Shown here: piece by piece, positions 15,032-19,107 of the stretch | Layout of the letters: each line of letters begins with the position of its first letter | Position numbering within the stretch: the first letter of the stretch is position 1 | Assembly: GCA_023144635.1 (NCBI GenBank) | Contig: JAGLFH010000052.1 | Coordinates: 1 to 64,000, forward strand | Direction of reading: 5' to 3' | DNA: 64,000 nt | Source: Candidatus Auribacterota bacterium | Lineage (GTDB): Bacteria > Auribacterota > JAFGBW01 > JAFGJP01 | The notes under the pieces: generated by a model | What the model was told of the DNA's origin: nothing | Seen by the model: only the letters and a program-made list of their open reading frames with translations | The model's database searches: none | Program-made: the position numbers and the translations under genes

Positions 15032-15081
15032 AAAAAACAGGCGTCTGATTTTTTGTATTATAAACCAGACGCCTGTGTCTA
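15032..15081 (-). promoter_or_regulatory. gltB leader: hexaloop hairpin competing with an intrinsic terminator
   Basis: Read on the minus strand, UAGAC[ACAGGC]GUCUG (15081 to 15066) forms a 5-bp stem with a six-base loop carrying A at position 1 and G at position 4. Its 3' part, CAGGCGUCUG (15075-15066), is exactly complementary to CAGACGCCUG (15047-15038), which is followed by six U. That 10-bp helix plus U-run is a terminator that excludes the small hairpin. The A1/G4 hexaloop is the known recognition rule of ANTAR antiterminators; assignment to that family is inference. Confidence 0.6.
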
Positions 15082-15118
15082 TTCAACCAGCTTCTATATT
15101 TATAATATAGAGCTAATT

Positions 15119-15147
15119 AATATAAATCATGACTATTTTCGTGTCAA
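15119..15147 (-). promoter_or_regulatory. sigma70-type promoter of gltB
   Basis: On the minus strand TTGACA (15147-15142) is followed 17 bases later by TATATT (15124-15119). Transcription would begin near 15112, giving a leader of about 148 bases that includes the hairpin/terminator element. The -35 lies only a few bases past the gdhA stop codon. Confidence 0.6.
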
Positions 15148-15152
15148 ATGAT

Positions 15153-16496
15153 TTATACAACTCCCTGTGCCATCATTGCACTGGCAACTTTTGTAAATCC
15201 GGCAATATTAGCTCCATTTACCAGGTTTCCAGGTGTTCCGTACTCTTCAGCTGCTTCGCTAGCTGACTTATAGATGTTTACCATTATTTTGTTAAGTTTT
15301 GCATCTACTTCTTCAAAAGTCCAAGCTTCACGCTGTGAATTCTGTGCCATTTCAAGACCTGATGTTGCTACTCCGCCTGCATTAGCAGCTTTTCCTGGTC
15401 CATAAAGAGTTCCGCTGTTTAAGAAAACTTTAACTGCTTCAGGAGTACAAGGCATATTTGCTCCTTCTGCAACAGCAATACAGCCGTTTTTAACAAGAGT
15501 CTCAGCTGCTTTGCCATCAAGTTCATTCTGTGTTGCGCTTGGTAAAGCTACATCACATTTTACATTCCATATACCAGAGCATCCTTCTGTGTATTCAGCG
15601 GATTTGTGCTCATTTACATATTCTTTGATTCTTTTACGTTCAATTTCTTTAAGGCGTTTTACGGTATCAAGGTTGATGCCGTCTTTGTCATATATATATC
15701 CGTTAGAATCAGACATAGCTACAACTTTTCCGCCTAACTGAGTTACTTTTTCATGAGAATAAATAGCAACGTTTCCAGATCCGGAAGCAATAACTGTTTT
15801 TCCTTCAAAGGAATCTTTTTTACCTTTAAGCATTTCATCGCAGAAATATACACAACCATAACCTGTGGCTTCAGTACGAACAAGTGATCCACCCCAATCC
15901 AGGCCTTTTCCTGTAAGAATACCTTCAAACTGTTTAGTAATTCTTTTATATTGTCCGAACATATAGCCTATTTCTCTTCCGCCAACACCTATATCTCCTG
16001 CAGGAACATCAGCATCTGCGCCGATATGACGGTAAAGTTCAGTCATAAAGCTTTGGCAAAAGCGCATTACTTCAGAATCAGATTTTCCCTTAGGATCAAA
16101 GTCTGTACCGCCTTTTCCGCCGCCCATCATAAGGCCTGTAAGAGAGTTTTTAAAGACCTGTTCAAAACCTAAGAATTTTATGATCCCGACATAAACAGAC
16201 GGATGAAAACGAAGGCCGCCTTTGTATGGGCCGAGAGCAGAGTTGAACTGAATTCTCATTCCGCGGTTTACATGGACTTTGTTCTGATCATCCTGCCATG
16301 GTATCCTAAAAAGAATTTGTCTTTCCGGTTCAACTATCCTTTCCAGAAGTCCTGCTTCTTCATATTCCGGATGTTTTTTAATAACAGGTTTAAGTGAATC
16401 CAGTACTTCACCTACAGCCTGTAGAAATTCAGGCTGACCTGCATTTCTTTTTGTGACGATTTCCATCACTCTTTCGATATAACCTGTGCTTGCCAT
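15153..16496 (-). CDS. gdhA: glutamate dehydrogenase, NADP-type hexameric
   Basis: The 447-residue enzyme interconverts ammonia plus 2-oxoglutarate and glutamate using NAD(P)H. It has GPYKGGLRFHPSV with a catalytic-region lysine (about 90-102), the GGGKGG substrate loop (near 125), PAGDIGVGGREIGYM (near 165) and a Rossmann domain with ASGSGNVA (about 238). Length and N-terminal alignment are those of the bacterial 445-450 residue NADP-preferring class. A strong AAAGGAGG precedes the ATG. It sits with gltB and gltD downstream and NfnAB upstream on the same strand. It is likely controlled by a double-hairpin leader at 16523-16580, the counterpart of the one before gltB. Confidence 0.94.
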   Translation of the reverse strand: MASTGYIERVMEIVTKRNAGQPEFLQAVGEVLDSLKPVIKKHPEYEEAGLLERIVEPERQILFRIPWQDDQNKVHVNRGMRIQFNSALGPYKGGLRFHPSVYVGIIKFLGFEQVFKNSLTGLMMGGGKGGTDFDPKGKSDSEVMRFCQSFMTELYRHIGADADVPAGDIGVGGREIGYMFGQYKRITKQFEGILTGKGLDWGGSLVRTEATGYGCVYFCDEMLKGKKDSFEGKTVIASGSGNVAIYSHEKVTQLGGKVVAMSDSNGYIYDKDGINLDTVKRLKEIERKRIKEYVNEHKSAEYTEGCSGIWNVKCDVALPSATQNELDGKAAETLVKNGCIAVAEGANMPCTPEAVKVFLNSGTLYGPGKAANAGGVATSGLEMAQNSQREAWTFEEVDAKLNKIMVNIYKSASEAAEEYGTPGNLVNGANIAGFTKVASAMMAQGVV

Positions 16497-16522
16497 ATTG
16501 GCCTCCTTTTTAGTTATAATTT

Positions 16523-16580
16523 AAAAAAAAAGACGTCTTTGTCCTTATGCTAATACATAAAGAAAAAGACGTCTTTGTCC
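16523..16580 (-). promoter_or_regulatory. gdhA leader: tandem AAAGAC hexaloop hairpins with U-run
   Basis: On the minus strand, GGAC[AAAGAC]GUCU (16580-16567) is followed by AAGGAC[AAAGAC]GUCUUU (16546-16529) and nine U (16531-16523). Both loops are hexanucleotides with A1 and G4. The two AAAGACGUCUUU palindromes can instead pair with each other over 12 bp just before the U-run, making a terminator. This dual-hairpin architecture is what ANTAR-domain antiterminators (EutV, NasR type) bind. The role is inferred, the structure is visible. Confidence 0.65.
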
Positions 16581-18086: not shown

Positions 18087-18172
18087 AATTATTTTAGCCG
18101 CGAAGTTACGCGAAGAAACACGAAGGAAAAACAAAAATTGTTATTCCTGGATTAACAGGAATCTACAAAAAA

Positions 18173-19030
18173 TTAACTGTCCTTGCTGTTCTTAGCGTTC
18201 TTAGTAGCCTCCTCTAGTTTGCAAATATGTTTTTCTTTATCCGTATAAACACTGTTCCTCTTTTTTAACTCGTCCCAGTCTACCAGATGAGCATCAAATT
18301 CAGGTCCGTCTATACATGCAAATTTTGTTTTGCCATCAACCGTTACTCTGCAGCATCCGCACATGCCTGTTCCGTCAACCATTAAAGCATTAAGTGATGC
18401 CAGAGTGTGCACATTAAACTCTTTTGAAACATAAGATACCCTTTCCATCATAGGAATTGGTCCTACTGCATAGACAACATTATATTTATCCTTTGAGAGA
18501 AGCTCTTTTAAAACATCTGTTGTAAACCCTTTTCTTTCATAAGAGCCGTCATCAGTTGTTATAAAAAAATCGTCTGATGTTGATTTTAGCTCTTCTTCAA
18601 GTATAAGCACTTCTTTTGTGCGTGCGCCGATAATCGTTGTAACATGATTGCCAATCTCTTTAAGTGATTTTGCTACAGGATATATCTCAGCAATACCTAC
18701 ACCGCCTCCAACAAGTATTACCCTGCCGAAATTCTTGATCTCAGTTGCGTGGCCTAGAGGGCCTGTTAATGCATAAAGAGAATCTCCGGCATTCAGGCTG
18801 CCAATTAATTTAGTGCTGAAGCCGGCTTCCTGAAGAATAATAGTTATTGTCCCGGCTTCTTTATTTTTTTTGACTACAGTAAGAGGGATTCGCTCTCCTT
18901 TTTCTGTTGCCATCAGAACAATAAATTGTCCCGGCTGAGCTTTTTTAGCTATATTCGGTGATGCTACTTCTATTTGTGTTAATTTTATTCCTGAAACATC
19001 TGATAAAGTCTTTTTTTCTATTATTTTCAT
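18173..19030 (-). CDS. nfnA: NAD-binding small subunit of NfnAB-type transhydrogenase
   Basis: The 285-residue FAD/NAD reductase is of the dihydroorotate dehydrogenase PyrK/ferredoxin-NADP reductase fold. FAD-binding beta barrel residues RIPLTVV lie near 47, and NAD-binding GGGVGIAEIYP near 108. A [2Fe-2S] site is formed by MCGCCRVTVDGKTKFAC (about 223-239). The C-terminus is lysine-rich. It is first of a two-gene unit with nfnB. Its leader at 19049-19087 resembles the gdhA and gltB leaders, suggesting coordinated nitrogen control of NADPH supply. Sulfide dehydrogenase SudB is the main alternative name. Confidence 0.8.
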   Translation of the reverse strand: MKIIEKKTLSDVSGIKLTQIEVASPNIAKKAQPGQFIVLMATEKGERIPLTVVKKNKEAGTITIILQEAGFSTKLIGSLNAGDSLYALTGPLGHATEIKNFGRVILVGGGVGIAEIYPVAKSLKEIGNHVTTIIGARTKEVLILEEELKSTSDDFFITTDDGSYERKGFTTDVLKELLSKDKYNVVYAVGPIPMMERVSYVSKEFNVHTLASLNALMVDGTGMCGCCRVTVDGKTKFACIDGPEFDAHLVDWDELKKRNSVYTDKEKHICKLEEATKNAKNSKDS

Positions 19031-19048
19031 TTTTTTACCTTTTAAACC

Positions 19049-19087
19049 AAAAAAACGCCTTTCTTGTATAAGGAAGACGTCTTTGTC
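19049..19087 (-). promoter_or_regulatory. nfnA leader: hexaloop hairpin and overlapping terminator
   Basis: On the minus strand GAC[AAAGAC]GUC (19087-19076) gives a hexaloop with A1 and G4. The overlapping AAAGACGUCUU (19084-19074) can pair over 11 bp, with two G-U pairs, to AAGGCGUUUUU (19061-19051), next to a run of seven U. The small hairpin and the terminator exclude each other, as in the gltB leader. Confidence 0.55.
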
Positions 19088-19089
19088 AG

Positions 19090-19107
19090 CAATTGAATAC
19101 TCAATTG
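19090..19107. promoter_or_regulatory. inverted repeat at the nfnA promoter
   Basis: CAATTGAATACTCAATTG has 7-bp arms (CAATTGA / TCAATTG) and a 4-base spacer. On the minus strand it lies just downstream of a TTGATT / TACAAT pair (16-base gap), at the expected transcription start. A repressor or activator site is possible. Confidence 0.35.

Follow-up and report, generated by a model that had tools for sequence, protein, structure and literature searches.

Predicted ANTAR-responsive attenuator leaders before gltB, gdhA and nfnA in a Candidatus Auribacterota bacterium

The DNA analysed here, referred to as the window, spans 64,000 nucleotides (nt) of contig JAGLFH010000052.1 from a Candidatus Auribacterota bacterium (assembly GCA_023144635.1). 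Its minus strand carries, in the direction of reading, the predicted genes nfnA and nfnB, gdhA for glutamate dehydrogenase, and gltB and gltD for glutamate synthase (Table 1). Between positions 14500 and 20200, read on the minus strand, nfnA, gdhA and gltB are each preceded by a leader in which a short hairpin with a six-base loop (hexaloop) shares bases with a predicted intrinsic terminator. We describe these leaders together with a GAF-ANTAR protein of the same genome, their candidate regulator.

Table 1. Leader elements and predicted genes of the region, with one leader from a related genome (last row). P1 and P2 denote the two hairpin positions of the gdhA leaders in relatives.
Feature	Position	Strand	Detail
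nfnA hexaloop hairpin	19076..19087	-	gac-AAAGAC-gtc, 3 base pairs (bp) only, loop AAAGAC
nfnA leader terminator and T-run	19049..19084	-	arm from 19084 pairs with 19064-19051
gdhA hexaloop hairpin 1 (P1)	16567..16580	-	ggac-AAAGAC-gtct; 5' arm of terminator
gdhA hexaloop hairpin 2 (P2)	16531..16544	-	ggac-AAAGAC-gtct; 3' arm of terminator
gdhA leader terminator	16523..16576	-	helix between copies 1 and 2, enclosing a folded linker; T-run to 16523
gltB hexaloop hairpin (P2 position)	15066..15081	-	tagac-ACAGGC-gtctg, 5 bp, loop ACAGGC
gltB leader terminator and T-run	15032..15076	-	loop and 3' stem of the hexaloop hairpin serve as 5' arm
Predicted nfnA promoter TTGATT-16-TACAAT	19104..19131	-	9/12, weak
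Predicted gdhA promoter TTGAAT-16-TAAAAT	16594..16621	-	9/12, weak
Predicted gltB promoter TTGACA-17-TATATT	15119..15147	-	11/12; between gdhA stop and gltB terminator
nfnA, FAD/NAD-binding subunit	18173..19030	-	Nfn name from homology and gene order
nfnB, GltA/GltD-like NADPH-dependent subunit	16662..18134	-	TIGR01316 above cut-off
gdhA, NADP-specific glutamate dehydrogenase	15153..16496	-
gltB, glutamate synthase large subunit	10429..14964	-
gltD, glutamate synthase small subunit	8691..10136	-
G001 gltB leader	L144, about 1495-1549	-	terminator intact, loop GAAGGC

A preliminary description of this DNA had reported such leaders, and its account of their sequences was borne out. All four hexaloops are closed by a C-G pair on a stem of at least 3 bp and have A at loop position 1 and G at position 4 (A1/G4). 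As had also been claimed, the same bases double as a terminator arm before a T-run: in all three leaders the 3' half of a hexaloop hairpin sits within the 5' arm of the terminator, the hairpin in question being copy 1 at gdhA. The gltB terminator is formed by ACAGGCGTCTG and CAGACGCCTGT, with a T-run that reaches 15032. The two hexaloop hairpins described at gdhA are indeed present, 22 nt apart, and are themselves the two arms of the terminator, in which the palindromes AAAGACGTCTTT of the two copies pair with each other. The sequence GACANAGNCGTCT has four matches genome-wide, every one of them in this region.

Folding of the full leaders gave -28.4 kcal/mol for gltB (z-score -6.2 against shuffles), -25.5 kcal/mol for gdhA (z -7.5) and -12.4 kcal/mol for nfnA, where the departure is moderate (z -3.0; 2 of 200 shuffles equal it). 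The isolated hexaloop hairpins reach -3.9, -2.8 and -1.9 kcal/mol for gltB, gdhA and nfnA, respectively, and are not superior to their own shuffles. Because the same bases serve both folds, and the hexaloop is weak (-1.9 to -3.9) while the terminator fold is strong (-12.4 to -28.4), the terminator would be expected to win unless a protein is bound. Hexaloops of the form C-A..G..-G with at least 3 bp arose in 42, 53 and 66 of 5000 dinucleotide shuffles of the gltB, gdhA and nfnA leaders, and occur in 5 of the 76 100-nt stretches upstream of open reading frames of at least 200 residues; nfnA and gdhA are among these five, and the gltB hexaloop lies farther out and was not counted. Seven strong terminators were found in the window and on contig C46, three with a hexaloop over the 5' arm (gltB, gdhA and nfnA) and four with none. 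A simpler terminator scan, limited to mismatch-free stems with loops of 3-8, listed none of the three leader terminators.

The promoter-like sites of the region number 16, against 14.7 expected by chance, and the best-scoring one is TTGACA-17-TATATT ahead of gltB.

The preliminary description had also called for an ANTAR-domain protein in the genome, and one was found. PF03861 (ANTAR) has a single match there, at 72.8 bits against a gathering score of 27.3, in a protein of 246 residues with a GAF domain at 36-173 and the ANTAR domain at 185-235. Pfam detects only these two domains and no receiver domain, so the protein is not a two-component regulator of the EutV type. It can be aligned with EutV, Rv1626 and NasR. 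Six of the nine EutV RNA-contact residues tested in PMC8934654 are identical (R142, K143, E160, Y164, M172 and R175, including all three G4 contacts; the residue numbering offset of 2 is our own). At the remaining three, K147 is replaced by R, N173 by D (shared with Rv1626 and NasR) and R177 by S. The gene lies on contig C46 (14907-15647, minus strand) after nifD, nifK, nifE, a NifN-like gene (NifN scored under its cut-off), nifB and nifV. In the PDB, matches 1 and 3 of the GAF part are named phosphoenolpyruvate-protein phosphotransferase. GAF domains of this type report nitrogen status. The identities of the genes are the whole basis for considering the leaders responsive to nitrogen, and a nitrogen-status metabolite is possibly the signal of the GAF domain.

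A first covariance model (R1) was seeded with the three window leaders and four gdhA leaders from another family of the phylum (f4). Over the 3.1 Mb genome it found gltB, gdhA and nfnA and no fourth leader at a similar score (150 of 2718 first-look candidates were scored). Lower matches were set aside: they fall on the reverse strands of these hairpins, on a contig C1 stretch that resembles a terminator (L136) and on a tRNA-Lys (L138); one further lower match lies at C1:45428. The preliminary description had proposed looking for the motif before amtB, glnA and nif genes as well; neither R1 nor a hexaloop scan pointed to a leader of this type before nifH or before the amtB-glnK-glutamine synthetase genes. 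The nif cluster is split inside nifH, whose first 27 residues are at the end of contig C44 (L174) and the remainder at the start of C46 (L006); a sigma-54 type site, TGGCAT-N5-TTGCA, was recognised by eye upstream of nifH and is preceded by a NifA gene. Locus L174 also encodes amtB, P-II and a type III glutamine synthetase, and the scan reported two C-closed 4-bp A1/G4 hexaloops in it, neither of which we judged to be such a leader: tttc-ACTGAA-gaaa at 9601 (+), closed by C-G, in the nifA-nifH interval, and one at 6469 (-), about 830 nt ahead of amtB. Pieces of IS-like transposases, named by eye, lie close to both nifA and the ANTAR gene.

ANTAR proteins were found in 7 of 44 genomes of the phylum. 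The GAF-ANTAR protein of the window's genome shares 57-58% identity with its counterparts in the four f4 genomes, 48% with the G012 protein and 37% with the G013 protein. In each of these f4 genomes gdhA is preceded by a leader consisting of a first hairpin (P1), a linker of 19-23 nt and a second hairpin (P2) over the 5' arm of the terminator, which leaves P1 free. P1 has a CAC/GUG core and the loops AAAGGC, AAAGAC, AAAGGC and AATGGT, P2 reads gac-AAAGAT-gtc or gac-AAAGGT-gtc, and the loop-to-loop spacing is 33-35 nt in these relatives against 36 nt in the window. A covariance-model search of relatives had been recommended, and beyond its seed R1 matched the gltB leader of G001 and, in each of the four f4 genomes, a leader before the CTP synthase gene pyrG. 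The pyrG leaders come from two genera (L156, L157, L158 and L159; the PyrG identity was verified by profile in G004) and hold ggac-AAAGGC-gtcc alone, with a terminator. A predicted promoter, TTGACA-16-TATATT, precedes the stem by only 10-11 nt, which, if that promoter is used, leaves no space for a P1.

Measured against the P1-P2-terminator layout of the relatives' gdhA, one point of the preliminary description has to be turned around: it had taken the second hairpin to be lost at gltB and nfnA, and the hairpin present there is P2, the absent one P1. Scanning of the gltB and nfnA leaders revealed no further A1/G4 hexaloop on a strong stem. The candidates we rejected were a 7-8 bp stem before gltB that has a 3-base loop; caattg-AGTATT-caattg before nfnA, which has A1 with A4 and overlaps the predicted -10; and aaga-AAGGCG-tttt, weak and on the 3' arm of the nfnA terminator. 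A hexaloop candidate elsewhere in the window, at 35884, has an A-T closing pair.

A second model (R2) was built on 11 leaders. In the seven ANTAR-bearing genomes and G001, searched together, it gave 12 matches of 41.5-59.1 bits, 11 of them its own seeds, the next being at 29.3 bits and lower. In eight hand-chosen control genomes lacking ANTAR the best score was 23.5 bits; G029 and G003, also lacking ANTAR, were not among these controls, and R2 scored 32.6 and 30.4 bits at their loci. Matches of 26-29 bits in L196, L165, L211 and L203 were discarded, since scanning the central part of these loci revealed no C-closed A1/G4 hexaloop at the match; L203 has an ATAGAC loop closed by A-U or A-T. L196 of G012 holds, at 1394-1530, a c-di-GMP-I riboswitch (RF03167) and with it a terminator, an arm of which scored against the leader model.

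In the alignment of the 11 leaders, 98.3% of the cells of the terminator helix are paired, 5 of 11 pairs show two-sided changes, and covariation is 0.461 against 0.252 in shuffled alignments. The GAC 5' of the terminator arm, needed only for the hexaloop stem, is invariant in all 11. A wider alignment of 19 of 21 elements, which adds the P1 hairpins, G012, an Oscillospiraceae element and three Elusimicrobia elements and leaves out two identical 18-mers, G001 and the remaining Clostridia hexaloop matches, shows two-sided changes in the outer two pairs of the hexaloop stem and a covariation of 0.600 against 0.209 when shuffled. Among the five leaders found by R1 with no A1/G4 rule, G4 is kept in five and A1 in four.

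We also looked at gdhA more widely. An ANTAR protein was found in 33 of the 50 named gdhA genomes searched (50/80 loci). Of 36 genomes with ANTAR, 10 have a C-closed A1/G4 hexaloop of at least 4 bp before gdhA, compared with 1 of the 30 that lack ANTAR (Fisher p 0.009); control loops gave 4/36 and 8/30. Within the phylum, 13 gdhA leaders from genomes without ANTAR contain no C-closed 4-bp hexaloop. Of 11 genomes, seven other than the window's have an NfnA (at least 50% identity); the upstream regions covered, those of six of the seven, have no hexaloop-terminator, L177 among them having two A-closed hexaloops with no terminator. The order nfnA-nfnB-gdhA, with NfnB recognised from its end, recurs in G006 and G007, from two other families, both of which lack ANTAR and such leaders. 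In Elusimicrobia, leaders before gdhA (L042 1253-1270, L044 3373-3390 and L046 5910-5927; one ANTAR protein per genome) present an AAGGAC, AAGGAT or AAAGGT hexaloop on 6-7 bp within a longer hairpin. This is a different layout, and R2 misses all three.

The single ANTAR protein, the six of nine shared EutV contacts, the presence of the element in ANTAR-bearing relatives and the covariation give the earlier suggestion of an ANTAR target RNA good support from sequence. We consider it likely that the three leaders are attenuators that the one detected GAF-ANTAR protein of this genome would open by binding the hexaloop hairpin. The GAF domain would meet its signal, the ANTAR domain would recognise the closing C-G, A1 and G4 and hold the hexaloop hairpin, and polymerase would then continue into gltBD, gdhA or nfnAB. 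A single hairpin would be enough at gltB and nfnA, and at gdhA each terminator arm would itself be a binding hairpin. That binding switches the genes on is carried over from EutV and NasR. Judged from the genes that follow the leaders, the putative regulon here would comprise ammonium assimilation and its NADPH supply. The leaders of gltB, nfnA and the f4 pyrG have P2 only, while EutV needs both hairpins, and the system would thus be ANTAR-like antitermination on something other than the classical dual-hairpin target. Chances are about even, in our estimate, that these genomes use single-hairpin ANTAR antitermination in nature, in which a GAF-ANTAR protein would open terminators via one hexaloop near the 5' end of the transcript (nfnA, gltB and the relatives' pyrG), the gdhA terminator would be broken by binding of either arm, and the regulon would link glutamate synthesis to a source of NADPH and, in the cousins, CTP synthesis.

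Several observations weigh against this interpretation. For EutV, two hairpins separated by 5-12 nt are required, and function fails at 3 nt, at 14 nt or when one hairpin is lost (PMC3369931); the single hairpins of gltB and nfnA and the 22 nt spacing of gdhA are outside that range. A second promoter-like site, TTGAAT-18-TATAAT (15086-15057, 10/12), extends across the gltB hairpin, which it could bypass. G001, in which no ANTAR protein was found (the genome is 77% complete), keeps the gltB leader and terminator with the loop GAAGGC, A1 being lost, possibly as a natural loss of control. G012 and G013 carry ANTAR and have no strong R2 match; G012 has gttgaac-AAAGGC-gttcaac plus a terminator immediately 3' of its ANTAR gene, at only 24.3 bits with R2, and no match was found in the vicinity of the G013 ANTAR gene. 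R1 does not separate the two groups by itself: at E 0.3 it matches in 17 of 44 genomes, and G029 scores 34.2 bits and G003 31.5, the lowest pyrG leader having 34.7. In the 11-leader alignment the three pairs of the P2 hexaloop stem are constant, and the stem therefore gives no covariation signal. Most elements were found by a scanner requiring A1, G4 and a stem, which makes pairing and loop letters partly a matter of construction, and the p value for co-occurrence at gdhA ignores kinship and counts in the window's genome and G019.

The strongest alternative, though in our view an unlikely one, is that the hairpins are constitutive attenuators or ordinary terminators that merely stop upstream transcription or reduce expression, with the hexaloop as a by-product of terminator sequence. 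The energies of the hexaloops alone, no better than shuffles, would fit this, as would the persistence of the G001 gltB terminator with neither A1 nor a detected ANTAR protein, and the terminators behind genes in G029 and G003, which also hold A1/G4 hexaloops, there closed by A-U. Against it stand the GAC that is unused by the terminator and yet invariant, the recurrence of P1 before gdhA in four relatives, with stem and loop letters changed in G011, the predicted promoters ahead of the gltB and pyrG hairpins, and the four other strong terminators that have no hexaloop.

Less probable still is that the inverted repeats are DNA operators for a DNA-binding repressor at overlapping promoters. The TTGAAT-18-TATAAT site at gltB does match 10/12, G001 has similar TTGATT and TATAAT letters at equal spacing with similar terminator-loop letters (by eye), and AAAGACGTCTTT is a perfect DNA palindrome. 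Nonetheless, the repeats of the window leaders end in T-runs, the pyrG hairpins lie downstream of their own predicted promoter, and G-U replaces Watson-Crick pairs of the terminator helix in several leaders (UG in 5 of 11 at one pair), which retains the RNA stem and breaks the DNA symmetry. In the least probable reading, a riboswitch or some other antiterminator protein acts on the same terminators. Against it are leaders too short to hold a large aptamer, the absence of any Rfam family at gathering score in 14900-19400 (below it, only plastid and microRNA chance matches) and the presence of ANTAR in seven of the eight genomes searched together for strong matches, two of the seven having weak matches only.

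The likely ANTAR reading can be set beside known systems. The eut leaders of Enterococcus faecalis share the A1/G4 hexaloop, a conserved closing pair of the C-G type, a P2 that overlaps the 5' arm of the terminator, and the main ANTAR contact residues of their regulator (PMC3369931, PMC8934654). The regulators differ in the domain joined to ANTAR, a receiver in the response regulator EutV and GAF here; eut has two hairpins 5-12 nt apart, whereas here there is one (gltB, nfnA) or a pair of terminator arms 22 nt apart (gdhA). NasR, acting on nasF, resembles the present case as a one-component ANTAR protein with an A1/G4 hexaloop before a terminator and a role in nitrogen assimilation, but it senses nitrate through a NIT domain and serves one operon, as opposed to a GAF domain and three leaders (PMC3369931, PMC8934654). 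NmPAL (PAS-ANTAR-LOV) is likewise receiver-less and binds one short hairpin, binding being a prediction here; its single-hairpin RNAs are artificial or mined, and its natural RNA is stated as unknown (PMC10966536).

ANTAR nitrogen regulons as such are already known, and what is new is the layout of the leaders. ANTAR RNAs were predicted before genes for glutamate synthases, nitrogenase, P-II and ammonium transporters already in 2012 (PMC3369931). The Desulfotomaculum and Pelobacter regulons predicted there resemble ours in covering glutamate synthase and other nitrogen genes in several operons per genome; they were found with a dual-hairpin model and include nitrogenase, P-II and ammonium transporters (PMC3369931). 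The present set instead lacks any detected leader at nifH and amtB-glnK and adds nfnA (pyrG in relatives). A nitR antiterminator of ammonia assimilation in C. acetobutylicum is mentioned in PMC4676874. A further system is GnfR of Geobacter; gnfR is named in a passage and a table of PMC7962754. Among the open-access papers that literature searches on ANTAR brought up, no title or abstract opening reports ANTAR leaders of the single-hairpin, nfn or pyrG type, and the terms GAF, single hairpin, pyrG and glutamate do not occur in PMC8164766.

The authors of the EutV structure ask why two hairpins should be needed if the dimer binds one (PMC8934654), and the apparent one-hairpin leaders, beside the two-hairpin gdhA leaders of relatives with a 57-58% identical regulator, offer a natural comparison for that question. 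No GAF-ANTAR protein had been characterised as of 2012, as a passage of PMC3369931 has it, and the one described here gains a compact predicted target set. If the reading is true, ammonium assimilation would be coupled to nfnAB, a likely source of NADPH.

Two further features of the window were recorded. Spacers made up of short near-repeats (CTTCGTG..., TCTGCGTTTATCTGCGTC) lie at 18101-18125 (-), 19304-19321 (-) and 40219-40236 (-), placed between the nfn genes and upstream of nfnA; the second of them has two window matches at up to 3 mismatches, against 0.04 expected. Finally, the window contains two cobalamin riboswitches, at 28127-28310 (+) with 120.4 bits and at 34051-34256 (-) with 100 bits.

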